Source: Thiothrix sp.
Lineage (GTDB): Bacteria; Pseudomonadota; Gammaproteobacteria; Thiotrichales; Thiotrichaceae
Assembly (NCBI RefSeq): GCF_028714775.1
Contig: NZ_JAQTLS010000004.1
Span: 117,232 to 181,231, forward strand
DNA: 64,000 nt
Direction of reading: 5' to 3'
Shown here: in pieces, positions 13,991-32,048 of the stretch
How positions within the stretch are numbered: the stretch's first letter is position 1
Layout: each line of letters begins with the position of its first letter
Position numbers and translations under genes: made by a program
Notes under the pieces: model-generated
Database searches by the model: none
The model's input: the letters and a program-made list of their open reading frames with translations, nothing else
Told to the model about the DNA's origin: nothing

Positions 13991-14002
13991 GGACTTGTCC
14001 CT

Positions 14003-14611: not shown

Positions 14612-14634
14612 ATTTTTTATATAAGGAACTAGCT

Positions 14635-15003
14635 ATGGCAACTGAAGAACTTACCTCGCAAACGTTTGAGGAAACCATCACCCAGAACGACATCGTGATC
14701 ATTGATTTCTGGGCACCTTGGTGTGGCCCATGCCGTTCCTTTGCACCGATTTACGAAAAAGTCTCTGAAAATCATGCCGACATCGTGTTTGCCAAGGTGA
14801 ATACGGAAGATGAGCAGGAGTTGTCAGCGCATTTCCAAATCCGTTCTATCCCGACGCTGATGATTTTCCGTGAGCAGGTTGTCCTGTTTGCACAGCCGGG
14901 GATGCTGAGCGAAGGGCAACTGGAACAAGTGATTGCGCAAGTACGCACCATCGACATGGCGAAAGTCCATGCAGACATCGCAGCACAGGAAGAACAGCAG
15001 TAA
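14635..15003 (+). CDS. Thioredoxin-family protein
   Basis: About 122 residues from the ATG at 14635, which has an AAGGA ribosome site; an in-frame ATG at 14593 lies inside ubiX and is rejected. It has a thioredoxin fold with active site WAPWCGPCR and the cis-Pro loop RSIPTLMIF. It has a slightly long acidic tail (DIAAQEEQQ). A general disulfide reductase is likely; the partner is not evident. Last gene before a terminator. Confidence 0.93.
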   Translation: MATEELTSQTFEETITQNDIVIIDFWAPWCGPCRSFAPIYEKVSENHADIVFAKVNTEDEQELSAHFQIRSIPTLMIFREQVVLFAQPGMLSEGQLEQVIAQVRTIDMAKVHADIAAQEEQQ

Positions 15004-15029
15004 GCTCGTGTTTGCTTGTAGTGCTTCGC

Positions 15030-15056
15030 AAAAAGCCGGGTTTAGCCCGGCTTTTT
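15030..15056. terminator. Bidirectional terminator between the convergent trx and YdjM-like genes
   Basis: An 11-bp perfect stem AAAAAGCCGGG/CCCGGCTTTTT with a 5-base loop. A and T runs on either side let it work on both strands. Confidence 0.93.
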
Positions 15057-15067
15057 GTTTGGTGGGT

Positions 15068-15682
15068 TTAAATTCCCCACAAGGCCACGACGCAAACCAG
15101 CCCAATGGTCAGCAGCCCATACAGTTCCAACGTGTTGCCTTTGCCCATCAGGCTCAGCGCTGAATCGGTGTCGGCAGGACGGTTCTGCTCAGGGTTTGCT
15201 TTGGTATTCAAATCATCCAGCAACAGATGCACCAGATAACCTGTTGCCGCTGCTAAGAAGGCCGGGACTGCCGCCAGCGAATTGGTAGTCAAATAAGCGA
15301 CCCACGAAACCCCCAGTGACAAGCACACGGCTGCGATCACCGAATGGCTGCGCTTGCCTTGTTTCAGCAGGTTATGTAGCACCACCCAGAAGTTCGATAC
15401 CAAGAACAGCGATAACGCCACCCCCAACACAAGGTCGGTCGGTCGGTAGAAAAATTGGATGGAAGGAACCAATACAGCCGCCATTTTGCTCAGTGTTTGG
15501 ACGATTCGGAAATTCAGTGACTGTTCGTCATCGACATCCGCCAATAACCCGCCCACGTAACCGCTTAGCGCTGTTACCCCGATAATTGTCCAGTCAATCC
15601 CCGGCAGGAATGTCATCGCCGTTGCACCCGCCCCGATGCCTACTGCCAATGACGCCAGTTGATGCGTTTTGCATTCTGTCAT
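15068..15682 (-). CDS. YdjM/DUF457-family membrane-bound metal-dependent hydrolase
   Basis: About 204 residues from the ATG at 15682, which has GGGGA 8 bases upstream; a further ATG at 15697 is less well placed. There are about five membrane segments. Conserved metal-ligand clusters of the family are THQLAS near the N-terminus, LLADVDDEQS, GKRSHSVI, and GYLVHLLLDDLN. The LexA-regulated E. coli YdjM belongs to this family. Its function is not known in detail. Confidence 0.82.
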   Translation of the reverse strand: MTECKTHQLASLAVGIGAGATAMTFLPGIDWTIIGVTALSGYVGGLLADVDDEQSLNFRIVQTLSKMAAVLVPSIQFFYRPTDLVLGVALSLFLVSNFWVVLHNLLKQGKRSHSVIAAVCLSLGVSWVAYLTTNSLAAVPAFLAAATGYLVHLLLDDLNTKANPEQNRPADTDSALSLMGKGNTLELYGLLTIGLVCVVALWGI

Positions 15683-15995
15683 TGCCTGTATCCCCATGTT
15701 TTATTTTTGCTGTAATTTGTGACATCTGAATTTGCATTTGATTCCCAGCCCGGTCATCAATATGCGAATTGCCTTATTTTTGTTTATGGTATCACGGTAA
15801 AAAGAACAGCCAGATGAACGAAAAGGGTAAAAAAAGAGGGAACGGGCATCCCTCTATCGGGCTTTTGCGTCGAAACAACATAGCAATTATTTTTATCATG
15901 ACGAGTTTAATTTTATAGCAAAGCAAGAGTGTGGTCAATAAATATGCACGCCAAGACTACTGCCCGCCGTTCGGGATAACTGCTACAATCGCCCC
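15683..15995. promoter_or_regulatory. 313-bp intergenic region with an extended -10 promoter abutting aroC
   Basis: The region is AT-rich between divergent genes. A short hairpin AGAGGGA/TCCCTCT occurs at 15835-15855 without a T run. TGCTACAAT (an extended -10 with TACAAT) is at 15981-15989, only 6 bases before the aroC ATG. Transcription would then begin at or next to the start codon, and no Shine-Dalgarno sequence is present. I see no gene here. Confidence 0.6.
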
Positions 15996-17093
15996 ATGTC
16001 AGGAAATAGCTTTGGAAAACTTTTTACCGTGACCTCCTTTGGTGAGAGCCACGGCCCCGCAATCGGTTGCATCGTTGATGGCTGCCCGCCCGGACTCGCC
16101 CTCACGGCAAGCGATATTCAGATTGACCTAGACCGGCGCAAACCGGGGCAGAGCCGCCACACCACGCAGCGGCGCGAAGCCGACGAGGTGCAAATCCTTT
16201 CCGGCGTGTTCGAGGGTAAGACTACCGGCACGCCGATTGCGCTGATAATCCACAACACCGACCAGCGTTCCAAGGATTACGGCGACATCCTCGACCGTTT
16301 CCGCCCCGGACACGCCGATTACACCTACTACAAAAAGTACGGTTTCCGCGATTACCGTGGCGGCGGGCGTTCGTCGGCACGTGAAACTGCGATGCGGGTT
16401 GCTGCTGGTGCGGTTGCTAAAAAGTGGTTGCAGGAACGTTACGGCGTCACTATTCGTGGCTACTTGTCGCAACTCGGGCCGATTGTGGCGGAAAAGCTGG
16501 ATTGGGACGAAATCGCCAATAACCCGTTCTTTTGCCCGGATGCCTCCAAAGTGGCGGAAATGGAAAGCTACATGGATGCGCTGCGTTCGGAAGGCAATTC
16601 CGTCGGGGCAAAGATTACCGTGGTGGCCTCCAACGTTCCACCCGGCTGGGGCGAACCAATTTTCGACCGTTTGGATGCCGACATTGCCCACGCGATGATG
16701 TCGATCAATGCCGCTAAAGGTGTGGAAATCGGCGCGGGTTTCGACTGTGTGGCGCAAAAAGGCACGGAACACCGCGATGAAATCACGATGGATGGCTTCT
16801 TGAGCAACCACGCGGGCGGTATCCTCGGTGGCATTTCGTCGGGGCAAGAAATCATTGTGCACACCGCTTTCAAGCCGACTTCGAGTATGCGCATTCCGGG
16901 GCGCACGGTGAATCTGGATGGCGAAGCGGTAGAAGTGATTACCAAAGGCCGCCACGACCCGTGCGTGGGCATTCGCGCTACCCCGATTTGCGAGGCCATG
17001 TTGGCAATTACGCTGATGGATCATGCCTTACGGCATCGGGCGCAAAATGCGGATGTGGTCACGAGCCTGCCCGACATTCCCGCATCGCCTTGA
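15996..17093 (+). CDS. aroC: Chorismate synthase
   Basis: A 365-residue enzyme converting EPSP to chorismate (last step of the shikimate pathway, FMN-dependent). It starts [20 protein letters not shown], the conserved N-terminus, which fixes the start even though there is no ribosome site. Further hallmarks are [44 protein letters not shown] and [13 protein letters not shown]. The promoter position suggests a leaderless mRNA. Its stop overlaps the TTG start of the next gene. Confidence 0.98.
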
Positions 17094-18277
17094 ACCCGAA
17101 TCCGTTCACTTCAAGTACTGCAAAGCCGCCGTATGTGCGGCTTTCGGTTTTCTATTTCGCCTATTTCGCCGCGCTGGGGGTATTCGTCCCGTATTGGACG
17201 GTGTACCTGAAAAAAGTCACGGGCTTTTCCGCTGCACAAATCGGGGAACTGATGGCGGTGTTCATGGCGAGCAAAGTCATTGCACCGTTCATTTGGGGGT
17301 GGTTGGCAGACCATACCGGACACCGCTTGCGCATTATCCGCTTAGCAAGTTTGCTGGCAGTGTTGTGTTTTGTCGGGGTGTATTGGCAGCAAAGCTACGG
17401 CTGGATGGTGCTGCTGATGGCGGGTTTCGGGTTTTTCTGGAATGCTTCGTTGCCGCAGTTTGAGGCGTTGACGCTCAATCATTTAGGGACGCACATAGGG
17501 CGTTATAGCTGGATACGTTTGTGGGGTTCCATCGGTTTCATTGTGATGGTGGTGGGGTTGCCGCCGTTGCTGGAAAGTGGTGGCATGACGCGGGTGGTGG
17601 ATGCGATGCTGGTGCTGTTCGTCGGCATTTGGTTGGCGACGTGGCTGGTGCGGGATAAGCCGCACCATGCGCATACCGAAACCGCGAGCCGTTTGCGCGA
17701 AGTCATCCGCCAGCCTGCGGTGTGGATGTTGCTGTTGGCGTGCGCCTTGCAACAGGCTAGCCACGGGGCGTACTACACCTTTTTCAGCTTGTATTTGGAA
17801 GACCACGGCTATTCGCGCACCTTTACCGGCTGGATGTGGGCGCTGGGGGTGATGGCGGAAGTGGTGCTGTTTTTGTTCATGCACCGCCTGATCCAACGTT
17901 TCGGTGCGGAACGCTTGTTCGTGTTGGCAATGCTGCTGACTGGCATCCGCTGGTTGTTGCTGGGCACATGGGTGGATGTGTTGGCGGTGCTGCTGTTGGC
18001 GCAGGTGTTGCACGCTGCGACTTATGGGCTGTTTCATGCATCCGCCATCCATGTGGTGCATCATGTGTTTCCGGGGCGTTTGCAGGGGCGCGGGCAGGCG
18101 TTATATTCCGGGGTAAGTTTCGGGCTGGGCGGTGCGTTAGGCAGCTTGCTCAGTGGTTATGGCTGGGAAACCTTGGGTGCGACGCAAACCTTTTACATCG
18201 CAACTGTCACGGTCAATGTGGGCTTGTTCCTGAGCTTGTATGCCATGCGGGATTTGGGGAGGCGCTATGGGCAATAA
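17090..18277 (+). CDS. MFS transporter of the HcaT/nucleoside-symporter-like (MFS_1_like) group
   Basis: About 395 residues with around 12 membrane segments. The likely start is TTG at 17090, overlapping the aroC stop (TTGA); the open frame extends further upstream only inside aroC. The segments [37 protein letters not shown] and [19 protein letters not shown] resemble 3-phenylpropionate transporter-like MFS proteins. The substrate cannot be read from sequence. It overlaps birA by 11 bases. Confidence 0.8.
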
Positions 18278-19043
18278 CTTATCGGCTGATGAAATCCGCC
18301 AGCATCTGGATGTAGCGGATAGCGTGGGGTTACGTGACATCCACATTTTCCCGGAACTCGATTCCACCAACCGCTGGGCTTTGCAACACGGGCAATGTGG
18401 CGACGTATGCCTTGCTGAGCAGCAAACCGCTGGGCGCGGGCGGCGTGGGCGGCAGTGGGAATCGCCTGCGGGTGTAAACCTGTACTTTTCCCTGCGTTGG
18501 TGTTTTGCCCAAGTGCCCACGCATTTACCGATGCTCAGTCTGGTAACAGGTTTGGCAGTGGCGGAAGCCTTGGATGATTGCGCAATACACGGTCACGGCC
18601 TGAAATGGCCTAATGACGTGTACCATACCGGAAAGAAACTCGGCGGTATTTTGCTGGAAGCGGTGGGTACGTTGGATCAAGTAGTGATCGGCATCGGCCT
18701 GAACGTCAACATGCAACCGGGCACAAATTCCAGCATCGACCAGCCGTGGACGAGCCTACGGGCAGTGGTCGGGGCAAACCTTGACCGCAACCTGTTGGTC
18801 GCTGCCATCCTCAAACGTTTGCTGCCCCATTTGAGGGCATTCCCCCAACTGGATATGGCGCAATTCCAGCGCGACTGGCAACGTTGGGATATTCTGGCAA
18901 ACAGCCCGGTGCGGGTATTGTCTGGCAATGAAGTGCTGGAAGGGGTTGCTTGCGGGGTCGATAGTCAGGGACAATTACGGCTTGCATTAAATGATGGATT
19001 AGTAAAAGTTTTTTCTTCAGCGGATGTATCGGTGCGGATGTGA
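18267..19043 (+). CDS. birA: Biotin--[acetyl-CoA-carboxylase] ligase, short form without a repressor domain
   Basis: About 258 residues from the ATG at 18267, which has GGGGAGG six bases upstream. The catalytic domain is complete: ELDSTNRWAL, the biotinoyl-AMP loop AGRGRRGRQW, LKWPNDVYHTGKKLGGILLE, IGIGLNVNM and the small C-terminal SH3-like domain. Only about 25 residues precede it, so the N-terminal winged helix of E. coli BirA is missing. It should biotinylate AccB but not repress bio genes. It is coupled to coaX through a GTGA overlap. Confidence 0.95.
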   Translation: MGNNLSADEIRQHLDVADSVGLRDIHIFPELDSTNRWALQHGQCGDVCLAEQQTAGRGRRGRQWESPAGVNLYFSLRWCFAQVPTHLPMLSLVTGLAVAEALDDCAIHGHGLKWPNDVYHTGKKLGGILLEAVGTLDQVVIGIGLNVNMQPGTNSSIDQPWTSLRAVVGANLDRNLLVAAILKRLLPHLRAFPQLDMAQFQRDWQRWDILANSPVRVLSGNEVLEGVACGVDSQGQLRLALNDGLVKVFSSADVSVRM

Positions 19044-19801
19044 CAATTTTGCTGGTGGATGCAGGCAACTCACGCCTGAAATGGTCGGTGCTGGATGCTG
19101 CGGGTAACACCTCCGTCCAGCAGGCGCAGGCGTATGCAGGTCGCCCTGCGTTGGCAGCGTTTCTGGATTTGCTGGATACCTACCCAGAAGTGACGCACAT
19201 TACCTTGGTGCATGTGCTGACCACCCTGTTTGCCGACACGGTGGAAGAAACCTGTGCGCAACGTGGTATCGGCCTGCACATTGCGCGTTCCGCCGCCAAG
19301 GCTTACGGCATTACCTCTGGCTACCAGCTTCCGCAGACTTTGGGCGCTGACCGCTTTGTTGGCTTGGTGGCAGCACACCATTTGGTGGAGCGCAAAGCCT
19401 GCATCGTGGTTGATTGCGGCACGGCAGTTACGGTCGATGCGGTGGAAAAGGACGGGCGGCATCTGGGCGGGCTGATCTTACCCGGCTTGCAGCTCTCGGC
19501 GGATGCCTTGATTGCACGCGCCCAAAACCGCCTCAGCCTGTCGTTTGAACACCCCACCATTTTCGCCGATGGAACCAGCCGCGCTATTGGTGGTGGTTGC
19601 CTGTTCGGGCTTGTTGGCGCGATTGAAGGCATTTGTGCGCGGATGCAGCACGCCATGACTACCCCGCTGGTACGCATCCTCACGGGTGGCGATGCCGAGC
19701 ACCTGCGCCCGTGGTTGCAGGGCAATTGCCTGATTATCCCCGATTTGCTGATGCAGGGCTTGCGCTACATCACGGAGCAGGAAGCATGTATCCACTGCTG
19801 A
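19040..19801 (+). CDS. coaX: Type III pantothenate kinase
   Basis: A 253-residue protein from a GTG start overlapping the birA stop. ASKHA-fold motifs are LVDAGNSRLKW (phosphate-1), TLGADRFVGLVAAHH, VVDCGTAVTVDAV and GGLILPGLQLSADAL. It catalyses the first step of CoA synthesis. The birA-coaX pairing is common in proteobacteria. A membrane-anchored SPOR-like gene overlaps its 3' end by 16 bases. Confidence 0.96.
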   Translation: MTILLVDAGNSRLKWSVLDAAGNTSVQQAQAYAGRPALAAFLDLLDTYPEVTHITLVHVLTTLFADTVEETCAQRGIGLHIARSAAKAYGITSGYQLPQTLGADRFVGLVAAHHLVERKACIVVDCGTAVTVDAVEKDGRHLGGLILPGLQLSADALIARAQNRLSLSFEHPTIFADGTSRAIGGGCLFGLVGAIEGICARMQHAMTTPLVRILTGGDAEHLRPWLQGNCLIIPDLLMQGLRYITEQEACIHC

Positions 19802-20430
19802 TCATCCTGTTACTGCTCAATGTCTCGGTGCTGGCGTGGAATGTCGCAGTGTCGCGGGACGCGGAACATACCCGTCCGCCGTTGGTGGAGCCGAATGTCC
19901 CTGCGCTGGAATTGCGCACCGATGTGGAGCAGGTGGTTTACAGTAGCGGTGCGGCGAATACCCAAAGCAGTTGCTACACCATCGGCCCTTACAACAGCGA
20001 AAAAGCCGCGCAACTGGTTTCAGATAAAATCCGTGGCTTTGGCCTTGCGGTGCAAATGCGCCCGATGCGCAGCATGGAAACCCTCAACTTCCTCGTTTAC
20101 ATCCCCCCCCTTGCCGATTATGCGCTGGCGGAAAAGACCGCGCAGGAGATTGCCCACGCCGACGTGCAGGATGTCTCTATCATCAACGAAGGCCCTTACC
20201 GCAACGCGATTTCACTGGGCTTTTTCAACAACCTCAACAAGGCCAAACGCCACGCGGAATACGTCCGCTACCTCGGCTACGATGCGCGGTATACCGAGCA
20301 GCAGACGGCGCGGGAAGTGTTCTGGCTGGACTACGACGAGCCATTCGGCAGCAATACGCCTGTGCAGGCGTGGAGCGCGGCGATAGACGCGACTTCGGAA
20401 GTGCAGCGGATTCCGAGGGCGTGTAAGTAG
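19786..20430 (+). CDS. Membrane-anchored SPOR-like domain protein
   Basis: A 214-residue protein. Residues 2-23 form a signal anchor (YPLLIILLLLNVSVLAWNVA). A SPOR-type repeat follows: CYTIGPYNSEKAAQLVSDKI...FLVYIPP, then AISLGFFNNLNKAKRHAEYV and LGYDAR. SPOR domains bind denuded glycan strands of septal peptidoglycan, so an envelope role is likely. The start lies inside coaX (overlap 16 bases), so the genes are probably coupled. Confidence 0.8.
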   Translation: MYPLLIILLLLNVSVLAWNVAVSRDAEHTRPPLVEPNVPALELRTDVEQVVYSSGAANTQSSCYTIGPYNSEKAAQLVSDKIRGFGLAVQMRPMRSMETLNFLVYIPPLADYALAEKTAQEIAHADVQDVSIINEGPYRNAISLGFFNNLNKAKRHAEYVRYLGYDARYTEQQTAREVFWLDYDEPFGSNTPVQAWSAAIDATSEVQRIPRACK

Positions 20431-20488
20431 CGGTGTCGGGTTAGAATAGCGCGAATCGGTAAGTAACAACCCTGAAACGAGGTGTGCG

Positions 20489-20740
20489 ATGCAAACCATG
20501 ACAGCGAATGAGGCCAAAACCCATTTCGGAAAATTTATTGACAAAGCACAACGAACTCCTGTCGGCGTGATGCGCCGTGGGCGTTTGGTCGGTGTGATGG
20601 TATCTGTTGAAGATTACGAGCAAATGCGGAAGTTCTATGCGAACCGTTTGCTACAAACTCTATGCGAAGTGGGTGAGTATGCTGCCAGTCAGGGGCTAAC
20701 CGAAGAAAAGTTGGCTGAATTGCTTGCTGATGAAAGCTGA
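20489..20740 (+). CDS. Phd/YefM-family antitoxin, apparently without a partner toxin
   Basis: An 83-residue protein with the Phd/YefM fold signature MTANEAKTHFGKFIDKAQR...VGVMVSVEDYEQM and a helical acidic tail. Such antitoxins bind operator DNA and neutralise RelE/Doc-type toxins. No toxin follows: the next 460 bases hold only a hairpin, the DGR template-like repeat and a terminator. It could serve a toxin elsewhere or act only as a DNA-binding protein. Confidence 0.85.
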   Translation: MQTMTANEAKTHFGKFIDKAQRTPVGVMRRGRLVGVMVSVEDYEQMRKFYANRLLQTLCEVGEYAASQGLTEEKLAELLADES

Positions 20741-20819
20741 GTGGTGACGGAGATTTAACGGATTTGGCGATGGTTGGGGGAATTCCTATCCTTTCGCCGC
20801 GTGAGTGTTGGGAACGGAT

Positions 20820-20840
20820 GCAGCATTAATGCGGCTTTTT
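20820..20840 (+). terminator. Weak terminator after the antitoxin gene
   Basis: GCAGCA-TTAA-TGCGGC (6-bp stem with one mismatch) followed by TTTTT. If real, it separates the antitoxin transcript from the template-repeat transcript. Confidence 0.45.
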
Positions 20841-20892
20841 CGTTTGCAAATGCGCTAATTATCAGCCACATTCTTAGGCGGGTTGGGGCAAC

Positions 20893-21014
20893 TCGCGGCG
20901 GTTCTTGGAACAATACCTCCGACAACGTTCGGTGCGCTATCCGTAACAGGAATCATCCTAACAATCGGAACAACAACATAGGGTTTCGAGTGGTGTTAGG
21001 TGAGTGAGTTCTCC
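20893..21014 (+). repeat. DGR template repeat (TR)
   Basis: This 122-bp sequence aligns gap-free with 23841-23962. Of 21 differences, 20 fall on adenines of this copy (9 A to G, 9 A to T, 2 A to C in the other copy). One is T to C at 20959. In the reading frame of the variable gene this copy is loaded with AAC/AAT codons (NNTSDN, NRN, NNRNNN), which adenine mutagenesis can diversify without making stops. The last 34 bases are identical in both copies. This copy is not attached to an FGE gene, so it is the template and not a second target. Confidence 0.9.
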
Positions 21015-21141
21015 ATAGTCAACGGCTTGCATCCGGCAAAGCGGTGTATCCACGGATAGCCGACGGCGGTGCAATGACCAACAGCCAGCTTGTCCTGACC
21101 CGGATCGCGACGGTTTGCCCTCCGGTCGAATAGCGAAGCAA

Positions 21142-21181
21142 TCCCGCGCCCTGTCTTGGGTGGTACGGTGCGGGGTTTTTT
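21142..21181 (+). terminator. Terminator of the template RNA unit
   Basis: An 8-bp stem CCCGCGCC/GGTGCGGG (one G-U pair) with a 16-base loop, followed by seven T residues. It lies 24 bases before the start of the NACHT gene. Confidence 0.7.
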
Positions 21182-21204
21182 AAAGTGATGTGAGGAAGGT
21201 GCTT

Positions 21205-23955
21205 ATGCAGTCATTGTGGACGTGGATTTGGGGAAATATCCAAAGTATTGAAGCTCTTGCTGCATTTGTCCTGATTTTATGGGGTCTTTGGTGGGGGGTG
21301 TGGGGACGTTTGCGAAAACCTCCTGTGGTGGTATCCGAACCTACACCTGTTGTGCCACAACCTGCCCGTGATTTGACTGTTTTTTACTACGCGGGCTTGG
21401 ATGCAAGCTGTGAAATGCTAAAACTCAACTTGATTGAGAAACGCTTGGGCGACAAGCAGGCTGGGCGTTTAGGATTATCCGAAATTTATCAAGACCAACG
21501 TATCCGCCTGCCGGAGTCAGGCGATAAAGCCAAAGCGGGCGAACACCTGCGCGAAAGCAAAGATGCAGAGCCGTTGATGGAGGCATTGAATAAACTTGAA
21601 AGCCGCCGCTTGGTCATTCTTGGCAAACTGGGTTCAGGCAAAAGCAGTTTTGTGAATTACGTGACTCACTGCATTATCCAAAGCCGCAGCAAGCCCGTTG
21701 CCAATTTACCCAGTTTTATGAGTAACCGCCCCATCGTGCGGTTGTTGTTGCGTGAGGTTGGTTTGCATGTGGATTCAACCAGCAACAGTAATGGGCTGAT
21801 CTGGCGCGAACTCAAGGCAGGTGTCCAGCAACAGATTGAAAAGCATTTGTTGAGCCAAGGGGAAATGGCACTGAAACCAAGCGAGTTTGAACAGTTTTGG
21901 CCTGCGTTTCAACGTGATTTTATCCAGCAGAATGGTATTTTGCTACTGGATGGTTTGGATGAAGTGAGCAGGGAAGATGCTGTGGCTGCTTTGCGCGAAG
22001 GTTTGCTCGCGTTTGCTGCTGATAAAGCTAACCAGAATGTGTTTATCGTTGTGACCAGTCGCCCATCGGCGTATGAGCGTGAGGAACAACGCTTGCCGGG
22101 ATTCTTGCAGACTGAGCTTGAACCAATGAATGAAGACCAAATCCGTGCCTTTATCCGTCAATGGTATCAAGTGATCGAGAGTAGTGACCCGACTCAAGCG
22201 ACAAAGCGAGCGGATGACTTGGCGCGGGATATTTTTGATAACCCGGCCTTGAAAGAAAGGAAAGATTTACAGGAAATGGCGGAACGCCCTTTGCTGTTGA
22301 CCCTGTTGATTGGGCTGAACTCGGCGGGGAAAAGCCTGAACCGTTCACGCCCCGAAGTTTACCGGGAAATTATCGAGCTTTTGCTGCAACGTTGGCAGGA
22401 AAACTTGCGCGAACACCTGCCTTCTTTGCGCCCTGAGTTACAAGAGGGGATGCGGGTATTGCAAAAATCCCCGGATGCCTTGATGAAATCCTTACAGAAA
22501 ACCGCGTATGAAACCTACGAAAGCCTTGGGAGCGCGGGGGCGGGAAATGCCGTTTTGGAATTCAGTGCTGCCATTGCGTTGGGCAACCTGTACGGCAAGT
22601 GTGAAAGCGATAACCTCAACCATGTTTTGGAATTTCTGCAAGACCGTAGCACCTTGTTGGTGGCTGGCAATCAGCCGGGCAAGCTGCAATTTGCCCACAA
22701 GTCCTTCCATGAATATTTGGCGGCGCGGCATTTATTCAATGAGGCTGATTGGGAAGAGCAGATTACCCGCTTGCTGTTGGCTAACCCGCAGTGGTGGCGT
22801 GAAGTTTTCTTGTTCATGGCAAAAGATGAAGCAGATGGGCGTTATGGCAAAGCGGTGGCATTTTTGCATGACGCATTGTTGGGTGGTTATAAACGTGACG
22901 ATGTTGCCCAACAGCGTCTGCTGATTTTGGCGGCGGAAGCGGCGATGGAAATGGAATTGCCGGATAATCTTGGTAAACGTACCCATGAGGAGTTGTACCG
23001 TTTCCTGCAAACGGAGTTGGTTCTATTGTTACCAAATTCTGACCTTGCAGTGGTTGAATGTGCGGAAGCAGGACGCTTATTGGGTGAACTCGGCGATCCG
23101 CGCCCCGGTGTGGGTGTTATCCGCGATGGTGAAAGTAAAGGTTTACCAGATATTGATTGGGTAAGAATCCCATCGGGTAGGCTCCGCATGGGGTTTGAAG
23201 CGGATGAAAACCAATTGGAAAATTGGGACAAACACGCGAAGCCTGCCCACGATGTTGCCTTGCCCGTCTTTTTGATGAGCCGTTTCCCTGTCACCAATGC
23301 CCAGTTTGCCTGTTTTGTGGGGGCAGGTGGCTATCAGGATGAGCTTTATTGGAAGACCAGTGATGCGGGTTTTAAATGGTGGAAACAGCGTGAGGTGCGT
23401 TTCCCTGTGTATTGGGATCAACGCAAATGGAGTAACCCCAATCACCCTGTTGTGGGAGTGTGCTGGTATGAGGCTTTGGCTTTTTGTGAATGGCTAAATA
23501 GAATGGGCAATTTGCACGGGCAGCGGGTGCGTTTACCGACAGAGGCAGAATGGGAATATGCCGCCCGTGGTGCGGATGGGTGGCGTTATGCTTGGGGTAA
23601 TGAGGCTGACCCTAGATTGGGTAACTACGATGACACTGGGCTTGGGCAAACATCCGCTGTGGGCTTATTTCCTGCGGGTAAGGCATTTGGTTTACAGGAT
23701 ATGACAGGGAATGTATGGGAGTGGACAACTAGCCAATGGGGAAAAGATTGGCAGAATCCTGAGTTCACTTACGATAAATGGGATGAGGAGGCAGAAAAGC
23801 GTGATAACTTAAATTCCGATGGTGATGTTTTGCGCATAATTCGCGGCGGTTCTTGGGTCAGTTCCTCCGGCTTCGTTCGGTGCGCTGTCCGTTACTGGAA
23901 TCATCCCCTCTCTCGGAGCGGCGACTTGGGGTTTCGAGTGGTGTTAGGTGAGTGA
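21205..23955 (+). CDS. Membrane-anchored NACHT NTPase with C-terminal FGE-sulfatase variable domain (DGR target)
   Basis: About 916 residues from the ATG at 21205, supported by AGGAAGG five bases upstream; a GTG at 21190 lies inside that region. Residues 12-35 form one membrane segment. A NACHT/STAND ATPase follows with Walker A GKLGSGKSS (about 140-148), Walker B GILLLDGLDEV (about 245) and sensor TSRPSAY. A helical arm ends in FAHKSFHEYLAARHLF. Residues about 650-916 form a formylglycine-generating-enzyme/C-type-lectin-like domain (WVRIPSGRLRMG, MSRFPVTNAQF, RLPTEAEWEYAARG, GNVWEWTTSQWG, RGGSW). Its last 37 residues (880-916) are encoded by the variable repeat. NACHT-FGE proteins with hypervariable C-termini are thought to be ligand sensors in conflict or self-recognition systems; that role is inference here. 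Confidence 0.9.
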   Translation: MQSLWTWIWGNIQSIEALAAFVLILWGLWWGVWGRLRKPPVVVSEPTPVVPQPARDLTVFYYAGLDASCEMLKLNLIEKRLGDKQAGRLGLSEIYQDQRIRLPESGDKAKAGEHLRESKDAEPLMEALNKLESRRLVILGKLGSGKSSFVNYVTHCIIQSRSKPVANLPSFMSNRPIVRLLLREVGLHVDSTSNSNGLIWRELKAGVQQQIEKHLLSQGEMALKPSEFEQFWPAFQRDFIQQNGILLLDGLDEVSREDAVAALREGLLAFAADKANQNVFIVVTSRPSAYEREEQRLPGFLQTELEPMNEDQIRAFIRQWYQVIESSDPTQATKRADDLARDIFDNPALKERKDLQEMAERPLLLTLLIGLNSAGKSLNRSRPEVYREIIELLLQRWQENLREHLPSLRPELQEGMRVLQKSPDALMKSLQKTAYETYESLGSAGAGNAVLEFSAAIALGNLYGKCESDNLNHVLEFLQDRSTLLVAGNQPGKLQFAHKSFHEYLAARHLFNEADWEEQITRLLLANPQWWREVFLFMAKDEADGRYGKAVAFLHDALLGGYKRDDVAQQRLLILAAEAAMEMELPDNLGKRTHEELYRFLQTELVLLLPNSDLAVVECAEAGRLLGELGDPRPGVGVIRDGESKGLPDIDWVRIPSGRLRMGFEADENQLENWDKHAKPAHDVALPVFLMSRFPVTNAQFACFVGAGGYQDELYWKTSDAGFKWWKQREVRFPVYWDQRKWSNPNHPVVGVCWYEALAFCEWLNRMGNLHGQRVRLPTEAEWEYAARGADGWRYAWGNEADPRLGNYDDTGLGQTSAVGLFPAGKAFGLQDMTGNVWEWTTSQWGKDWQNPEFTYDKWDEEAEKRDNLNSDGDVLRIIRGGSWVSSSGFVRCAVRYWNHPLSRSGDLGFRVVLGE

Positions 23956-23962
23956 GTTCTCC
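23841..23962 (+). repeat. DGR variable repeat (VR)
   Basis: This is the 3' end of the NACHT-FGE gene plus 7 bases past its stop. It pairs with the template at 20893-21014 over 122 bp with no gap. Fourteen of the 37 encoded residues differ from the template translation; they cluster after RGGSW and around NHP, the usual ligand-facing positions of FGE/CLec variable domains. The single non-adenine change is silent (CCT to CCC, Pro). Confidence 0.9.
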
Positions 23963-24026
23963 CTGGCTTTTCTGCGGTGCTGGGTACTGGTATCCTGACT
24001 TCTGATTGCTGATCTTCTGCCGGAAG

Positions 24027-24062
24027 CCCTCACCCCAACCCCTCTCCCAGAGGTAGAGGGGC
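24027..24062 (+). repeat. REP-like dispersed repeat
   Basis: CCCTCACCCCAACCCCTCTC followed by a short loop and AGAGGGG forms a 7-bp hairpin. This C-rich string resembles a repeat found between genes in many proteobacterial genomes. It lies in the gap downstream of the variable repeat. Confidence 0.5.
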
Positions 24063-24093
24063 TAAGAAAAACAGCATCTTGCTCACCATCTAT

Positions 24094-24438
24094 TCACCGC
24101 AGAAATCCACCCACCTTGTTTTCCAACAGCCGCACCAACTCCGGCTGCATGTAGTCGTAATCATCAGGAATATCCAAACAGATAACCCGCTTGCCGTTCA
24201 GGTGAGTTTTGAACTGCTTTGCGAGTTTGTTGCGGTGGGTTTTTTCCATCACGAAAATCAGCGTTGCCCATTCGATTTGCTCGACGGATAGGCGCACGTC
24301 AGCATCATTGCCGAGTCCGGCAGAGTCCGTTTCCACATCAGGCCACATAGAAAAAACCTGCTCAGCGGTTGGGCTGCGCAGGCGGTTTTGGGTACAGATG
24401 AATAGGGCGCGAATCACAAGACACCAACCCACCCCCAT
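24094..24438 (-). CDS. Low-molecular-weight protein tyrosine phosphatase-like protein
   Basis: At most 114 residues. The P-loop is FICTQNRLRSPTAEQVF, a CX5RS motif close to the N-terminus as in LMW-PTPs. DSAGLGNDADVRLS, WATLIFVMEKTHRNKL and the late acid loop CLDIPDDYDYM match a small COG4551-like phosphatase group. The start is unclear: ATG at 24438, or GTG at 24417, which would give the usual short N-terminus (IRALFICTQN). The substrate is unknown. No terminator or coupling with its neighbours is evident. Confidence 0.85.
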   Translation of the reverse strand: MGVGWCLVIRALFICTQNRLRSPTAEQVFSMWPDVETDSAGLGNDADVRLSVEQIEWATLIFVMEKTHRNKLAKQFKTHLNGKRVICLDIPDDYDYMQPELVRLLENKVGGFLR

Positions 24439-24508
24439 GTACCACTAGCGGTATCACAGGGGGAGTGGTTTTTCGGCCTGCTTCCAATGAGTTTGTTGGG
24501 CAACGCAA

Positions 24509-25024
24509 TCAGAAAATGCAGGAGTGCGGCAGCGGTGCAACGTTGGCTTTGACCGTGCCTACGTTGAGTGTGGCTGATTGGAAGTCGGTATTAGGGACAC
24601 CGATAGAGGCTTGCTTTTGCCCATTGGCAGGGACTACCACAGGTGAGCCTTTGATGGTCACGAATTCGCCCGGTTTTGTCGTTTTGCATTTGGTAGGGAT
24701 GCATAGAGACCCAGCAGGCATACCACTGCAATCCACTGGGTAGTATTCGACGCATTGGTTTAGTTTTTGGCCTTTAAACACAGGCGTATAGGTTTGTGGG
24801 GTAGTGTTTTTGTTAACCAGTGTGCCGATGACGCTGGATGACGAGGGGTTGCCGCAGACGTATTTCACATCCTTGATCACGGGAGCCAGCAGCAAGGGGA
24901 TGTGGTTGCCGATGTTGGTGACAGCGGCGGCGCTTGGTAAGCGGACAGTATTATCAGCGATGGCTGTGCCAATGCTCATGGCAGCAGTCAAGGCGATCAA
25001 AGTGGCGATGTAACGTGGTTTCAT
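24509..25024 (-). CDS. Secreted Cys-containing protein of unknown function
   Basis: A 171-residue protein with an AAGGAG ribosome site. The signal peptide MKPRYIATLIALTAAMSIGT is cleaved after AIA. The mature part has six Cys (YVCGN, NQCVEY, VDCSG, SLCIP, TKCKT, HSCIF), suggesting disulfide bonds, and a Thr/Asn/Pro-rich beta-type composition. I recognise no domain. A single gene. Confidence 0.75.
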   Translation of the reverse strand: MKPRYIATLIALTAAMSIGTAIADNTVRLPSAAAVTNIGNHIPLLLAPVIKDVKYVCGNPSSSSVIGTLVNKNTTPQTYTPVFKGQKLNQCVEYYPVDCSGMPAGSLCIPTKCKTTKPGEFVTIKGSPVVVPANGQKQASIGVPNTDFQSATLNVGTVKANVAPLPHSCIF

Positions 25025-25160
25025 GGTGATACTCCTTATGCAAGTTAGTCTTTATAGGTAACGTTGATACCGGAATTTTGTTTACTGTTATAGAGTTAAA
25101 GCATACTCTTTTTTTTTGCGGGCGACAGTGCGTTTTGTGAACAGATGGCAGCAGATATGA

Positions 25161-25661
25161 CTACGATTCGTTTTGACAATTTTCGACAAAATCGGCAATG
25201 AAATCATACTGCTCTTGCGTCTCAGGGATTGGGAAGCCGCGTGCGTCTGAAACCATCTGGATGGCGGTTTCCATGTCATACCCATCGCGTTTGAGGATGC
25301 ACCCCGCCAGCACGCCAGTGCGCCCAATCCCCGCACGGCAGTGGATGGTGATGTTTGCCCCCGCGAGCAATTCTGTGTGCAATTCCGCCACCAGTTGCCG
25401 GAATGCTGGCTCATCCGTGGGGTTTTGGCTGTCGGCAATCGGGAAGTGGGTAAAGTCCAGCGCCGCTGCTTGGCAAAGTTCGTCCTCTTGTTCCAGCCCA
25501 AACTGCTGCATCTCGCTGTCTTCCAGCAAGCATACCACCCTGTTGATACCGAGTTGCTGGAAAAATGCCACGGCTTCCGGCAGGTAGTTACCGTCCGGTT
25601 TCGGCATGATGCACAGCGTGCCTGCGCCAACGGGGGAAACTTCAAAAATCAGTGGTTTCAT
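25161..25661 (-). CDS. Dual-specificity/tyrosine phosphatase family protein
   Basis: About 166 residues from the ATG at 25661; the open frame upstream overlaps the LysR gene. The signature HCRAGIGRTGVLAGC (HCX5R) is intact. Upstream are the general-acid-region candidates TEP/FPIADSQNP, and GDP-like NRVVCLLEDSEM. It resembles bacterial phosphatases of the cyclin-dependent-kinase-inhibitor-3/DSP type. It lies 16 bases downstream of the LysR gene on the same strand and may be co-transcribed. Confidence 0.85.
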   Translation of the reverse strand: MKPLIFEVSPVGAGTLCIMPKPDGNYLPEAVAFFQQLGINRVVCLLEDSEMQQFGLEQEDELCQAAALDFTHFPIADSQNPTDEPAFRQLVAELHTELLAGANITIHCRAGIGRTGVLAGCILKRDGYDMETAIQMVSDARGFPIPETQEQYDFIADFVENCQNES

Positions 25662-25677
25662 GCGGGTAGTGTCGCAC

Positions 25678-26553
25678 TCAAATAGGGCTTTGTTCCAGCA
25701 GGAAGTCGACGAACGCCCGGTTTGCTCGTGACAGATAGCCATCACGCCGCCATGCGATGCACAAATCCAGCCACAAGGGTTGTTCAAATGGCAAGTCCAC
25801 CAGTTCCGGGTCTTCTTTCGTCACCATCGTCAGCAGTGTGGAAATGCCAAAACCCTGCTTGATGATCGACTTGATCAGCGGCAGCAGGTTGGTTTCAAAA
25901 CCAATATTTGGCGTAACGCCAGCCTCTTGCGCCAGCCGGTCGATGATTTTGCGGTGAAAATAGCCGGGACGGAACATTACCAGTTCTTCGCTGAAAAAGT
26001 CATGCAAACTGACGCAGTTTTGGGTGGTAAAGCGATGGTCTTGCGCCACGATCACGCGCATTTCTTCGCGCCGGAAGGTTTTGGCTTCCAGCTCTTCTGG
26101 GACGAAATCACGCACGATTACCGCCAAATCCAGTTCACCACCTTCCAGCATTTGTTGCAGTTGCCATGTGCCGCCTTCCACCACTTGCAGGCTCAGGTGT
26201 GGATGGCAGTGGCGGAACGCCATCAGGATTGGCGGGAAATAGTACGAACCCAACATCCCCGGTATCCCGACGCGCACCATGCCTTGCGTCAGCCCCTTGA
26301 GTTCCTGCATTTCCAGTTGCGCATCACTGACGGCTTGCAGGATGCGTTGCGCATGGGGCAGCAAGCGTGCGCCTTCATCGGTCAGCGTCACTTTGCGGTC
26401 GTGGCGATGGAACAGGGTCAAATCCAGTTCCGCCTCCAACTTACGGATGGCGACACTGACGGCAGGTTGGGCGACGTACAAGGCTTCCGCTGCACGGGTG
26501 AAGCTGCCCAGCCGGACGATTTCGTGGAAATAGCGCAGTTGTTTGAAATCCAT
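25678..26553 (-). CDS. LysR-family transcriptional regulator (YnfL-like by context)
   Basis: About 291 residues from the ATG at 26553 (MDFKQLRYFHEIVRLGSFTR); the extra 44 upstream codons are non-conserved. The winged helix is at residues 1-60 and a periplasmic-binding-like effector domain follows (VRVGIPGMLGSYYFPPILMA). It is divergent from an MFS exporter at 26656, the same arrangement as E. coli ynfL-ynfM, so it probably controls that transporter. An inverted repeat fitting a LysR box lies 11 bases upstream. Confidence 0.92.
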   Translation of the reverse strand: MDFKQLRYFHEIVRLGSFTRAAEALYVAQPAVSVAIRKLEAELDLTLFHRHDRKVTLTDEGARLLPHAQRILQAVSDAQLEMQELKGLTQGMVRVGIPGMLGSYYFPPILMAFRHCHPHLSLQVVEGGTWQLQQMLEGGELDLAVIVRDFVPEELEAKTFRREEMRVIVAQDHRFTTQNCVSLHDFFSEELVMFRPGYFHRKIIDRLAQEAGVTPNIGFETNLLPLIKSIIKQGFGISTLLTMVTKEDPELVDLPFEQPLWLDLCIAWRRDGYLSRANRAFVDFLLEQSPI

Positions 26554-26564
26554 ACCAGCCCCTA

Positions 26565-26585
26565 TCGGTAAACAAACGTTATCGA
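26565..26585. promoter_or_regulatory. Putative LysR operator in the divergent promoter region
   Basis: TCGGTAA-N7-TTATCGA is an imperfect inverted repeat compatible with the T-N11-A LysR consensus. It lies between the LysR gene and the MFS gene it probably controls. Confidence 0.5.
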
Positions 26586-26655
26586 AACCATTCCTACTAT
26601 ATATTTTATCAATTTCTGCGGTGCAATTATGCTGGAAGAAATTCAGGAGATTGCC

Positions 26656-27858
26656 ATGATTGAAGCCAATACCCGCGCTTTTCACCTCGCCACGTTAGCC
26701 CTGTGTCTTGGCTCGGCGATGATTTTCGCCAACTTGCATTTGGTGCAGGCGTTGTTGCCGACCTTTGCGCTGCAATTTCACCTGACGGAATTGCAGGCCA
26801 GTTGGAGTTTGACCATCGCGATTTTAATGTTGGGTTTGTCATTGCTGGTCTACGGCCCGCTATCGGATGCGATTGGGCGCAAACCGATCATGGTGGTGAC
26901 AATGGCGGGGGCGGTGTTGACCACGTTGGCGTTGTCGCAGGTGGAAAGTTATTCCACGTTGCTACTGTTGCGCGGCGTGCAGGGCTTTTTCCTCGGCGGT
27001 TTGCCCGCGATTGCGATTGCTTACATGGGCGATGAATTCAGCCGTAAAGCGGTGGCGTTGGCAGTGGGTGTGTATATCAGTGCCAACAGTTTGGGCGGGG
27101 TCAGTGGGCGGATAGTGGGTGGTTTCGTGGGGGAACATTTCGGTTGGGCGGCAGCCTTTGGGGTGATGGGGATGATCAGCGCGGTGTTGCTGGTGGTTTT
27201 CGTATTGCTGTTACCGCCTTCGCGCCATTTCCAGCCTAAGCCGCTGCATCCGGTGCATGTGCTGCAAGATTTGTGGGGGCATCTGCGTAACCCGGTGTTG
27301 CTGGCGGCGTGTTTGGTGGCGGGGGGAAATTTCATGATCTTCCTCAACCAGTACAGCTACATCACCTTTGTCTTGGCGGATGCGCCTTATTACTTGTCGC
27401 CGCACGCGCTGGGGATGTTGTTCCTGACTTATTTGGGTGGAACGGTGACGGCGGCGTTTTCTGGGCGGATCGCGCAACATTTGCCTGCGCCACTGGGGAT
27501 GGCGCTGGGTATCCTATTGCTCATGGGTGGGACGTTGCTGACGCTGATCCCCAATCTGTATGCAATTGTGTGGGGTTTTATGGTCAGCAGTTTCGGTTTC
27601 TTTTTTACCCATTCGTTGGCAAGCAGTTGGGTCAGCCACCATGCGTTGAAGGCGCGGGCGAGTGCTTCGTCGCTGTATTTGGTGTTTTATTACTCGGGGG
27701 CGAGTGCGGGTGGGATTTTGCTTGCGCCGTTCTGGCATTGGCAAGGTTGGCTGGGGGTGGTGGTAGGTTCCTTGCTGGTTTATTCGCTGACCTTGGTTTG
27801 CAGCTTGTGGTTATATCGTTGGCAATCCATCCCAGCCGTCAGCAAAGTTGGGGTATAA
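26656..27858 (+). CDS. MFS transporter, YnfM-like drug/metabolite exporter
   Basis: About 400 residues from the ATG at 26656, which has AGGAG six bases upstream; the ATG at 26629 is less well placed. There are twelve predicted membrane helices and the MFS motif A GPLSDAIGRKPIMVV. LLLLRGVQGFFLGGLPAIAIAYM resembles the AraJ/YnfM DHA1 exporters. The substrate is unknown. It is divergent from the LysR gene. Confidence 0.88.
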   Translation: MIEANTRAFHLATLALCLGSAMIFANLHLVQALLPTFALQFHLTELQASWSLTIAILMLGLSLLVYGPLSDAIGRKPIMVVTMAGAVLTTLALSQVESYSTLLLLRGVQGFFLGGLPAIAIAYMGDEFSRKAVALAVGVYISANSLGGVSGRIVGGFVGEHFGWAAAFGVMGMISAVLLVVFVLLLPPSRHFQPKPLHPVHVLQDLWGHLRNPVLLAACLVAGGNFMIFLNQYSYITFVLADAPYYLSPHALGMLFLTYLGGTVTAAFSGRIAQHLPAPLGMALGILLLMGGTLLTLIPNLYAIVWGFMVSSFGFFFTHSLASSWVSHHALKARASASSLYLVFYYSGASAGGILLAPFWHWQGWLGVVVGSLLVYSLTLVCSLWLYRWQSIPAVSKVGV

Positions 27859-27892
27859 TCTGTTGGTCTCCCCCTTTGCCACAGGTTATGCC

Positions 27893-28501
27893 ATGACTGA
27901 TGTACGCCCACCTTTGCAAACCCTCCATGAAGTTTTGCCCAACTCCTTTATCTTTGTGAAACACGATGCCATTCCGGGTTTCTTGTGTGACAACATGGTG
28001 GAACGTTTCGAGCTGAACATGGCTGACCAATACGCGGGGCGCTTGGGGCAAGACACGGGCTTGAACCAAAACATCAAGAAAACCACCGATATTTTCGTCA
28101 GTGGTGACGACAAGCCGCATTGGAAGGACGTGGATAATAACCTGCACCGTTCCTTGGCGCTGGCTTTGCGTGAATTCCGCGAAACCTACCCGTATTTCAA
28201 AGGGCCTTTCAAGGACATGGGTTACAACCTGCAACGTTATGAGACGGGCGAGTATTACCACTGGCATATCGACGGTGGCAGCCATCAGTTTGCCATGCGC
28301 CAATTGGTGGCCTTGTGGTATTTAAATGATGTGCCGGAAGAAGCGGGCGGGGCGACTGAGTTCCTGTTCCAAAATATCAAAGTGCAACCGAAAAAAGGGA
28401 CGCTGGTACTGTTCCCGCCGTTCTGGACGCACGAACACCGCGCTGGCGTCGTGACCTCCGGTGCGAAATACATCGCCACCACGTGGGTCGTGTTTGCATG
28501 A
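27893..28501 (+). CDS. 2OG-Fe(II) oxygenase (prolyl-4-hydroxylase-like)
   Basis: About 202 residues from the ATG at 27893 (MTDVRPPLQTLHEVLP). Iron ligands are visible in YYHWHIDGGSHQ (HxD) and WTHEHRAGVV (distal His), with the 2OG-binding Arg in HRAG. RYETGEYY precedes the HxD. Its stop overlaps the soxX start (ATGA), so it is translationally coupled to soxXA. A link to sulfur oxidation is inference; the substrate is unknown. Confidence 0.85.
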   Translation: MTDVRPPLQTLHEVLPNSFIFVKHDAIPGFLCDNMVERFELNMADQYAGRLGQDTGLNQNIKKTTDIFVSGDDKPHWKDVDNNLHRSLALALREFRETYPYFKGPFKDMGYNLQRYETGEYYHWHIDGGSHQFAMRQLVALWYLNDVPEEAGGATEFLFQNIKVQPKKGTLVLFPPFWTHEHRAGVVTSGAKYIATTWVVFA

Positions 28502-28968
28502 AAATAGTCATGGCTTTGCTGCCGCTAGTGTTTGCTTACTCATCTGTTGCTCTGTCTGCCGATGCAGGTACATTGCCGCCGCCAGAAAAGTATTGCCAGT
28601 GGGAGATGAGTAATTATTCCATTACCGCGCCGCTGTGTGGCCTGAAAGGTGACGCTGCCCGTGGCAAGTTGATCGTGTCAGATGGTCACAAGGGCAATTG
28701 TTTGGCGTGCCATCAGTTGCCGATTGATGGGGTGGAAGCCTACGGCACGATTGCCCCGCCACTGGCAGGCATCAGCAACCGCATGAATGAAGCGCAACTG
28801 CGTTTGCGGGTGGTCGATTCGCGTAACCTTAACCCGATGTCGATCATGCCCGGTTTTTACCGCGACCCCAAGCTGATCAATCGCCCCGCCAAAGCCTATG
28901 AGGGCAGGACATTCCTGCAAGCGCAGGAAGTGGAAGATGTCATCGCTTATCTGGTAACACTCAAATGA
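28498..28968 (+). CDS. soxX: Sulfur-oxidation c-type cytochrome SoxX
   Basis: A 156-residue protein with a signal peptide (MKIVMALLPLVFAYSSVALS/A). One haem site is GNCLACHQLP, and the distal Met loop is LNPMSIMPGFYR. GTIAPPLAGISNRMNEAQLR is typical SoxX. With SoxA it forms the periplasmic SoxAX complex that conjugates thiosulfate to SoxYZ. It is coupled by 4-base overlaps to the oxygenase upstream and soxA downstream. soxYZ and soxB are not in the window. Confidence 0.95.
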   Translation: MKIVMALLPLVFAYSSVALSADAGTLPPPEKYCQWEMSNYSITAPLCGLKGDAARGKLIVSDGHKGNCLACHQLPIDGVEAYGTIAPPLAGISNRMNEAQLRLRVVDSRNLNPMSIMPGFYRDPKLINRPAKAYEGRTFLQAQEVEDVIAYLVTLK

Positions 28969-29732
28969 GCAAGCAAATACCGGCAGTTTTGTTGTTAGTG
29001 GTGCTGCTGATCGGCAATGTGTGGGCGGATGGCAGTGCAAAGTCCGGCTATGAATTCATCAAAGCAGAAACACGGGCAATGCAGGATGATGACATGCAAA
29101 ATCCCGGCTTCATCGCGGTGGAAGAAGGGCGTGGCTTGTTTAACAAGTCACCCGCTTCAGGTAAATCCTGTGCCAGTTGCCACGGCGAGGCAGGCGAAAA
29201 GTTGGCGGCGAAAAACCTTGCGCGTTACCCGATTTACGACAAAGCCCAAGGCGGGATCGTGCGCTTGCAGGACAAAATCAAAACCTGCCGCGAAAAGCAG
29301 TCTGGCGAATCGGCGTTACTCGCCAACCATCACGAGCTGATTGCGCTGGAAACGTTTGTGCGCCATCTGGCTTTCGGCGAACCCGTCAATGTACAAACCG
29401 ACGGTGAGATGGCAGACGTGCTGAAAAAAGGGCAGGAAATGTACAATGTGCGTTACGGCCTGATTGATATGTCTTGTGCGCATTGCCACGACAGGTATCC
29501 GGGGCAAATGATCCGGGGGCAAAAGATCAGCCAAGGGCAGGGCAACGGTTTCCCTGCTTACCGGCTGGATATTGGTGAAATGACCAACCTCGACCAACGC
29601 ATCCAGCAATGCCTGACGCTGATGCGTGCCGAACCGTTTGACGCTGATTCCGAGGAAATCAAATTGCTGGGGGCTTACGTTATGTCGCGTTCCAATGGCT
29701 TGAAGATCGAAACGCCTGCTGTGCGTTACTGA
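28965..29732 (+). CDS. soxA: Sulfur-oxidation c-type cytochrome SoxA (di-haem)
   Basis: A 255-residue protein with a signal peptide (VLLLVVLLIGNVWA/D). Two haem motifs, CASCH and CAHCH, mark the di-haem form. The C-terminal Cys in QQCLTLMRAEPF matches the active-site cysteine that becomes a persulfide haem ligand. SoxA and SoxX together load thiosulfate onto SoxY. The gene ends convergent with a small minus-strand gene, overlapping 7 bases. Confidence 0.95.
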   Translation: MSKQIPAVLLLVVLLIGNVWADGSAKSGYEFIKAETRAMQDDDMQNPGFIAVEEGRGLFNKSPASGKSCASCHGEAGEKLAAKNLARYPIYDKAQGGIVRLQDKIKTCREKQSGESALLANHHELIALETFVRHLAFGEPVNVQTDGEMADVLKKGQEMYNVRYGLIDMSCAHCHDRYPGQMIRGQKISQGQGNGFPAYRLDIGEMTNLDQRIQQCLTLMRAEPFDADSEEIKLLGAYVMSRSNGLKIETPAVRY

Positions 29733-30046
29733 ACCAGTTCATGCCCGGTCATGTCGCCTTCGATATTCATGTGCACTTCGCGCACCTGCGGCATCCGTTT
29801 GAGGATATATGCCGCCATCAAGGTTCCGCTCTTCATATTACCATTGGTCAGTGCAGTTAGAATTTTGTCGGCTATAATCTGGCAACGCTGTTCTTGATCC
29901 GGTTTGTCTACCCACAAGCGGCTCATTTGATAGCCTTTATTCATGTCCTGATCGAGTTGGGTGAAAAAATCTTCGCCTTCTTCCAGCATAAATTGAGGTA
30001 CGTCAATATCGCGTGTGGTGTCGTTGATTTGAATCCGTAATTGCAT
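29726..30046 (-). CDS. Hypothetical small acidic protein
   Basis: A 106-residue protein from the ATG at 30046, with GAGAG just upstream; a GTG at 30049 is adjacent. No signal peptide or membrane segment. MQLRIQINDTTRDIDVPQFM suggests a beta start, followed by helices (EDFFTQLDQDMNKGYQ). The C-terminus VREVHMNIEGDMTGHEL looks like a ferredoxin-like beta strand. I do not recognise the family. It is convergent with soxA and divergent from the PKHD hydroxylase gene. Confidence 0.7.
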   Translation of the reverse strand: MQLRIQINDTTRDIDVPQFMLEEGEDFFTQLDQDMNKGYQMSRLWVDKPDQEQRCQIIADKILTALTNGNMKSGTLMAAYILKRMPQVREVHMNIEGDMTGHELVQ

Positions 30047-30123
30047 CACTCTCTACCTGTTTTGTACTCGCAGGCAGATTACCGGATTCTGCCCCTGAAC
30101 GGAACCAACAAGAGGAAACCATC

Positions 30124-30792: not shown

Positions 30793-30916
30793 ATATCAGG
30801 GATAACCACTTGGCAGAGGAATCTATTTTTCTGTCGGAGATTTTCTTGAAAGAATGCCGCATTGGCGCGAGAACTAACAAATGGATTTTAGTAAGTAGTT
30901 TTAGAAGGAGTTTGTG

Positions 30917-31789: not shown

Positions 31790-31812
31790 GCCGTTGATCT
31801 CGTGCCAATAAT

Positions 31813-31838
31813 AAAAAAGCCGCAGAAGCGGCTTTTTT
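31813..31838. terminator. Bidirectional terminator
   Basis: An 11-bp perfect stem AAAAAAGCCGC/GCGGCTTTTTT with AGAA loop, between convergent genes. Confidence 0.95.
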
Positions 31839-31856
31839 ATTGGAGCTAGGATCAGC

Positions 31857-32048
31857 TTATTTCCAGAAATTGGCTTCTTGGGAAGCGATTTCACGGACTT
31901 CAGCAGCCAGTTCTTGGTAACGTTCACGGTAAGTTTTCCACTCACCAACGTAATATTCTTCAGCGTCAAACGCGCCAGATTGCTCGTGTGCAATGAATTT
32001 CTTCTGCATTTCAAGCATTTCGCTGATCAGCTCTTGCTTTTTGCTCAT
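31857..32048 (-). CDS. Small helical protein, unknown function
   Basis: A 63-residue, almost entirely helical charged protein (MSKKQELISEMLEMQKKFIA...) with C-terminal ASQEANFWK. No signal peptide, no Cys. It lies downstream of the DsrC-like gene on the same strand but behind a terminator-like hairpin at 32104. I do not recognise the family. Confidence 0.65.
   Translation of the reverse strand: MSKKQELISEMLEMQKKFIAHEQSGAFDAEEYYVGEWKTYRERYQELAAEVREIASQEANFWK

Follow-up and report, generated by a model that had tools for sequence, protein, structure and literature searches.

A template RNA and NACHT-FGE target of a diversity-generating retroelement in Thiothrix, probably stranded by loss of the adjacent reverse transcriptase and Avd

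The window, that is, the whole 64,000-nt stretch of DNA that was analyzed, from the filamentous sulfur bacterium Thiothrix sp., carries on its forward strand a gene for a 921-aa protein (21190..23955, putative start) with a NACHT domain (residues 139-326; Pfam, 42.5 bits) and a C-terminal FGE-sulfatase domain of the C-type-lectin kind (656-918; 196.1 bits). The FGE part resembles solved FGE-fold proteins, among them the Treponema denticola variable protein 1 (2y3c, E 1.2e-11), which we take to be a target of a diversity-generating retroelement (DGR). The search for an antiphage NACHT family gave no PADLOC match for the protein, and its NCBIfam EruA score of 17.4 bits fell far below the cutoff (1000). 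At the 3' end of the gene lies a variable repeat (VR, 23838-23962, forward strand), whose ungapped counterpart, the template repeat (TR, 20890-21014, forward strand), is found upstream of the gene. The TR is preceded by a conserved leader (20842..20889, forward strand) containing a TTTGCAAA box that is present in 5/5 Thiothrix loci, and is followed by a structured RNA on the same strand (21006..21182; model match 21006-21178). The leader may hold the promoter region of the TR-containing RNA (TR-RNA); a sigma-70 consensus scan called no promoter there. Immediately upstream of the TR-RNA, an 83-aa ORF (20489-20740) encodes a Phd/YefM-type antitoxin (Pfam, 44.9 bits).

Over 125 nt without a gap, the TR and the VR differ at 22 sites, 20 of which are template adenines, so that 20/33 A sites and 2/92 non-A sites are substituted (Fisher p about 1e-12). 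The remaining two differences are a C>T at the edge and a T>C at 20959/23907. A previous sequence-only reading of this DNA had described a 122-nt ungapped pair (20893-21014 and 23841-23962) with 21 differences, 20 of them at A; we recovered this pair at the same positions and with the same split into 9 A>G, 9 A>T and 2 A>C, and codon inspection agreed that the T>C is synonymous, in a Pro codon. The span from the first to the last changed A contains 27 adenines, of which 7 are the same in both copies, the number reported before. The template had also been called rich in Asn-type codons and proof against stops, and this description stands: AAC and AAT make up ten of the template codons, from each of which 15 amino acids and 0 stops can be reached, and no in-frame change of a template A yields a stop. 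Template adenines account for altered residues at 14 positions of the target, all within 890-913, while the edge C>T in the VR alters a fifteenth, residue 884. Judged from the sequence, the VR would lie inside the C-type-lectin/FGE domain. The stop codon of the target, TGA, includes one template A, which is kept in 5/5 Thiothrix loci. When further VRs of the window TR were sought in its own genome, only the TR of another DGR on contig C31 (70%) and matches of 31 nt and 18 nt were obtained beyond the TR and VR themselves.

The TR-RNA region, counted from about the TTTGCAAA box through the terminal hairpin (327-343 nt), is 86-88% identical between the window and four other Thiothrix loci, the target proteins of which share only roughly 31-39% identity with the window target. 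Its end, at about 21140-21181, is a GC-rich hairpin with a run of six T that looks terminator-like when read from the sequence, though it escaped a simple terminator scan. Among seven aligned sequences, double changes occur in 18/47 base pairs, compared with a mean of 5.4 in shuffles (0/500 reach 18), although this comparison favors structure because it was made on the same alignment from which the structure came; in a control with the pairing partners slid, at most 5 pairs had double changes. Within the five Thiothrix sequences alone, a double change is seen in 1/51 pairs. The RNA model detected the sequence of genome G018, which was held out and not used in building, at 89.7 bits. In the other DGR loci searched, its single match was a weak one to a second DGR of genome G009 (L064, E 0.005), and across 369 genomes sampled from the class, under stricter filters, it matched the window genome alone. 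The folding energy of the TR-RNA was no better than that of shuffles (z 0.72), an Rfam search of 20600-21300 returned nothing up to E 1, and the TR-RNA query had no match in the plasmid records. The covarying segment that follows the TR may be the RNA element by which reverse transcription is positioned. Conserved DNA also extends behind the VR (23954..24019, forward strand), where GAGTTCTCC-CTGG follows the VR, as against GAGTTCTCC-ATAG after the TR. We take the two to be IMH-like and IMH*-like, respectively, and the distinction between CTGG on the VR side and ATAG on the TR side holds in 5/5 Thiothrix loci.

Related copies of the locus were sought in several genome sets. Of 16 Thiothrix genomes searched, the window genome and G004, G007, G009 and G011 contained the 141-nt TR query in full. 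A 340-nt RNA query gave some match in 16 of 63 genomes of the order, a count that includes partial matches, VR-only matches and matches to the TRs of other DGRs. Among named records, an exact 20-nt TR-RNA pattern occurs in the T. fructosivorans plasmid pTfr446, in Thiothrix sp. UBA5583 and in a Gammaproteobacteria bacterium marine rock biofilm MAG. The TR/VR comparison was made with the window and seven homologous loci (G004, G007, G009, G011, G018, G031 and G054). At all seven the TR/VR differences are concentrated at A, and three have a reverse transcriptase (RT) and Avd, which supports the sequence-only reading of a NACHT-FGE gene as the target of mutagenic homing directed at adenines. The loci of G004 and G009 are arranged as TR-RNA, target, RT (364 aa) and Avd. 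The G004 RT contains the motifs GLPIGNLTSQ and YVDD, the G009 RT is 97% identical to it, and the G004 Avd scores above the NCBIfam cutoff (104.4 vs 80 bits). In G018, from the same family, the TR/VR pair is adjoined by an RT (residues 1-354, 72%) and an Avd (1-105, 80%). An intact RT thus adjoins 3/8 TR/VR pairs and none of the remaining 5/8. The complete locus resides on plasmid pTfr446 in T. fructosivorans (G004, L060) and on a 4.28-Mb contig in G009 (L062), with flanks that are 82-83% identical.

Behind the window target, nothing similar to RT or Avd follows. The conserved DNA stops at about 24019, and in the adjoining interval (24019..24048), where G004 and G009 continue to RT and Avd, the window has a dispersed 21-nt repeat (CCTCACCCCAACCCCTCTCCC, 24028-24048) with 26 exact copies genome-wide vs 0 for the reversed control. 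An intact DGR RT and an Avd elsewhere in the genome, which had been put forward as a check on the DGR reading, did not turn up: the 70-contig assembly contains no intact DGR RT, although an assembly gap or a lost replicon could hold one, and the search for Avd yielded one weak Avd-like gene on another contig (29%, C5:170033-170284, L167), which adjoins an FGE-type gene. Four RVT_1 matches were found in this draft. One, which carries GIIM and HNH domains, is of the group II intron type; one (C6:105213-105821) is a stand-alone RT adjoining a Cas1 gene (Pfam Cas_Cas1, 216 bits); and one (C4:83401-84027), on the window's contig upstream of the window, is a retron type XIII-like RT. The fourth, on C31, is a DGR-like RT with an in-frame deletion of its middle, the stretch that carries QGLPIGS and YMDD in its relatives. 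This core-deleted RT is part of a second DGR of the same genome (L010 10370-13358), together with an HRDC gene, a TR and two FGE targets, and the TR/VR differences of this DGR fall at A in 16/20 and 15/15 cases. Furthermore, a C-terminal RT remnant next to an FGE-type gene is located at C5:145785-146027 (L166); an A-biased TR/VR pair was sought at C5:145785 and C5:170033, with none at either.

The other loci that lack an adjoining intact RT differ in what remains. G007 is the sole genome among the 16 of the genus without any RVT_1 match, and the G004 RT finds nothing in it up to E 10; the RVT_1 profile covered these 16, the window genome among them, a set outside which G018, G031 and G054 fall. 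G011 has no RT beside the homologous target; elsewhere it has two further RT frames of the DGR type, each 350 aa long. In both G007 and G011 the sequence diverges no more than a few bases from where the RT would begin, and the sequence past the junction differs between them; a single old RT loss common to the two was considered and would be one way to read these junctions. In place of the RT, a BrnT-type toxin gene (Pfam, 83.9 bits) lies behind the G007 target (L070 6513-6902). At the end of the G007 VR (L070), a non-A change, T>A, turns the target stop TGA into AGA and the frame continues, with TGA kept in the TR. The G031 RT keeps residues 1-75 and has an internal stop, and pieces of Avd lie upstream of the TR on the opposite strand. 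A long inverted repeat, MITE-like by eye, is situated between the VR and this truncated RT (L156 5427-5640). A search of G054 with the G004 RT came back empty at E 0.001. Meanwhile, remnants of the same RT (1-30) and of Avd (1-40 and 81-110) are found in G006 (C1:815074-815482, L165), a genome with no TR match.

A comparison between genomes revealed that the VR and TR have changed together. At non-A sites where the TRs of two genomes are unlike, the VR follows its own TR in 11/13 cases when the window is compared with G004, in 11/11 with G009, in 6/7 with G007 and in 5/6 with G011, in 5/5 for G007 against G011, in only 1/3 for G004 against G009, and in 9/10, 14/16, 10/10 and 14/14 for the remaining genome pairs, all of these pairs being mutually non-independent. 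Since the VRs track their own TRs at non-A sites, homing, or conversion acting like it, continued after most of the cassettes had diverged; the concerted non-A change could partly stem from ordinary gene conversion. Within genomes, non-A differences amount to 2/272 at the three RT-bearing loci vs 6/445 at the five RT-less loci (Fisher p 0.72). Half of these six belong to G054 (A changed at 7/31, non-A at 3/82), the pair of which looks the oldest of the set. Non-A differences are therefore not detectably more frequent in the RT-less loci, which means that either the losses are young or an RT acts from elsewhere.

We consider it likely that the window holds the TR-RNA and target of a Thiothrix DGR whose adjacent RT and Avd were lost recently, beside the dispersed repeat. 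An RNA comprising the TR and the structured 3' part would have been copied by the RT, with errors at A, into a cDNA that took the place of the VR in the 3' end of the NACHT gene, changing 14 residues of the FGE/C-type-lectin domain that probably form a ligand-sensing surface. In the ancestral arrangement, the RT and Avd would have stood directly behind the target, as they do in the complete relatives, and in the window genome they would have disappeared next to the repeat not long ago, a time bounded by few sites. The locus is the product of a DGR and not demonstrably a working DGR in this genome, where it is presumably inactive at present. Against the loss, recent events of this kind at 5/8 loci are much to ask, and an RT acting from elsewhere would also explain the tight TR/VR match.

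In a rival reading the cassette is still active, with an RT and Avd on a plasmid, on a phage, in an unassembled stretch or in another DGR acting on the TR-RNA in trans. The complete T. fructosivorans locus is indeed plasmid-borne (pTfr446), G011 encodes the two further RT frames, and the RT-less pairs match at non-A sites about as closely as the RT-bearing ones do. On the other hand, the window assembly lacks an intact DGR RT and G007 lacks any RT match, the RNA model finds just the weak L064 match in the other DGR loci searched, and the plasmid records have no match to the RNA query, so that we regard present activity in trans as unlikely. A stronger form of the idea, in which the TR-RNA and target would constitute a non-autonomous DGR unit that persists without an RT of its own and is served in trans by RT-Avd pairs coming and going on plasmids or other replicons, strikes us as rather doubtful; if true, it would parallel non-autonomous transposons with borrowed transposases. 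No RT or FGE relatives were confirmed in viral contigs.

The absence of the RT may instead be a matter of the data, with an RT present in the organism and missed by the assembly, or with structural variants in the sequenced population. The assembly is in 70 contigs, and intact and broken variants coexist for DGRs 3 and 7 of Thiohalocapsa in the accessible part of PMC10907252. However, the locus lies inside a 241-kb contig with contiguous sequence behind the VR, and the same absence is encountered in G007 and G011, again distant from contig ends, which makes this explanation quite improbable. Ordinary duplication and divergence, with the upstream copy a fragment of a second FGE gene, would account for two similar copies in which the same frame is open. 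This is next to inconceivable given the A-specificity of the differences and the equal bias at the seven homologous loci, and the A restriction across loci rules it out; around the TR there is no further FGE match, tblastn of the target against 14001-32000 (E 1e-8) having returned the target alone, so that the upstream copy does not belong to a second FGE gene, a case in which the previous reading was said to fail. Loss of the adjacent RT and Avd remains the reading that we prefer.

In the Bordetella phage BPP-1 DGR, a TR/VR pair with A-directed changes, Avd and RT serves a target of C-type-lectin fold, the phage tail fiber. The Thiothrix loci share with it the TR/VR pair, the A-directed changes and the target fold and, in the complete relatives, Avd and RT. 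They differ in their order (TR, target, RT and Avd in the complete relatives), in having a host gene as the target and, in the window, in lacking the RT. Compared with a plasmid collection, the G004 RT is similar to RTs on Nostoc sp. UHCC 0926 pn2 (48.3%) and Acaryochloris marina pREC1 (47.0%), which are among the five best matches listed. These cyanobacterial RTs likewise lie near genes annotated as Avd and FGE-family; in contrast to Thiothrix, Avd there precedes the RT, and the FGE-family genes occur together with genes for proteases and for AAA or MoxR ATPases. The TR-RNA model found nothing on the pn2 and pREC1 DGRs.

A closer parallel is Thiohalocapsa sp. PB-PSB1, for which the accessible part of PMC10907252 describes nine DGRs, with STAND/NACHT and FGE targets among them, incomplete loci with repeats in place of RT or TR, and probable activity in trans. 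As far as that part goes, the two sulfur bacteria have in common a STAND/NACHT NTPase target with a C-terminal FGE/C-type-lectin VR, an aggregate-forming way of life, and loci without RT or TR with repeats at their sites. In Thiothrix, by contrast, the TR has its own structured RNA and precedes the target gene, which in the relatives is followed by RT and Avd; furthermore, the RT is missing repeatedly among genomes of one family, and the TR/VR pair is traceable from species to species. NACHT-FGE DGR targets of Thiohalocapsa and relatives are associated with RT clade 5D. The window locus is most likely a recently stranded DGR target of the kind already known from these incomplete Thiohalocapsa DGRs (PMC10907252, in the same part), and a defense or sensor role of the target may be suggested by analogy with the systems described there. 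A literature search pairing "diversity-generating retroelement" with Thiothrix, which covered few subscription journals, found no paper. The interesting part is the recurrent absence of the RT with TR and VR kept in register. For comparative work, these loci offer a series in which the same DGR has an intact RT, a truncated RT or none, and its TR and VR can be traced from one species to the next; the series makes it testable whether a diversified immune-type sensor is retained after a useful version has been fixed or whether the RT is borrowed. Elsewhere in the window, about 22 kb from the target, a gene at 46500-47957 encodes a 485-aa protein (Pfam TGase_elicitor) that is 67% identical to a protein encoded beyond Avd in the G004 locus (L060 10671-12302).
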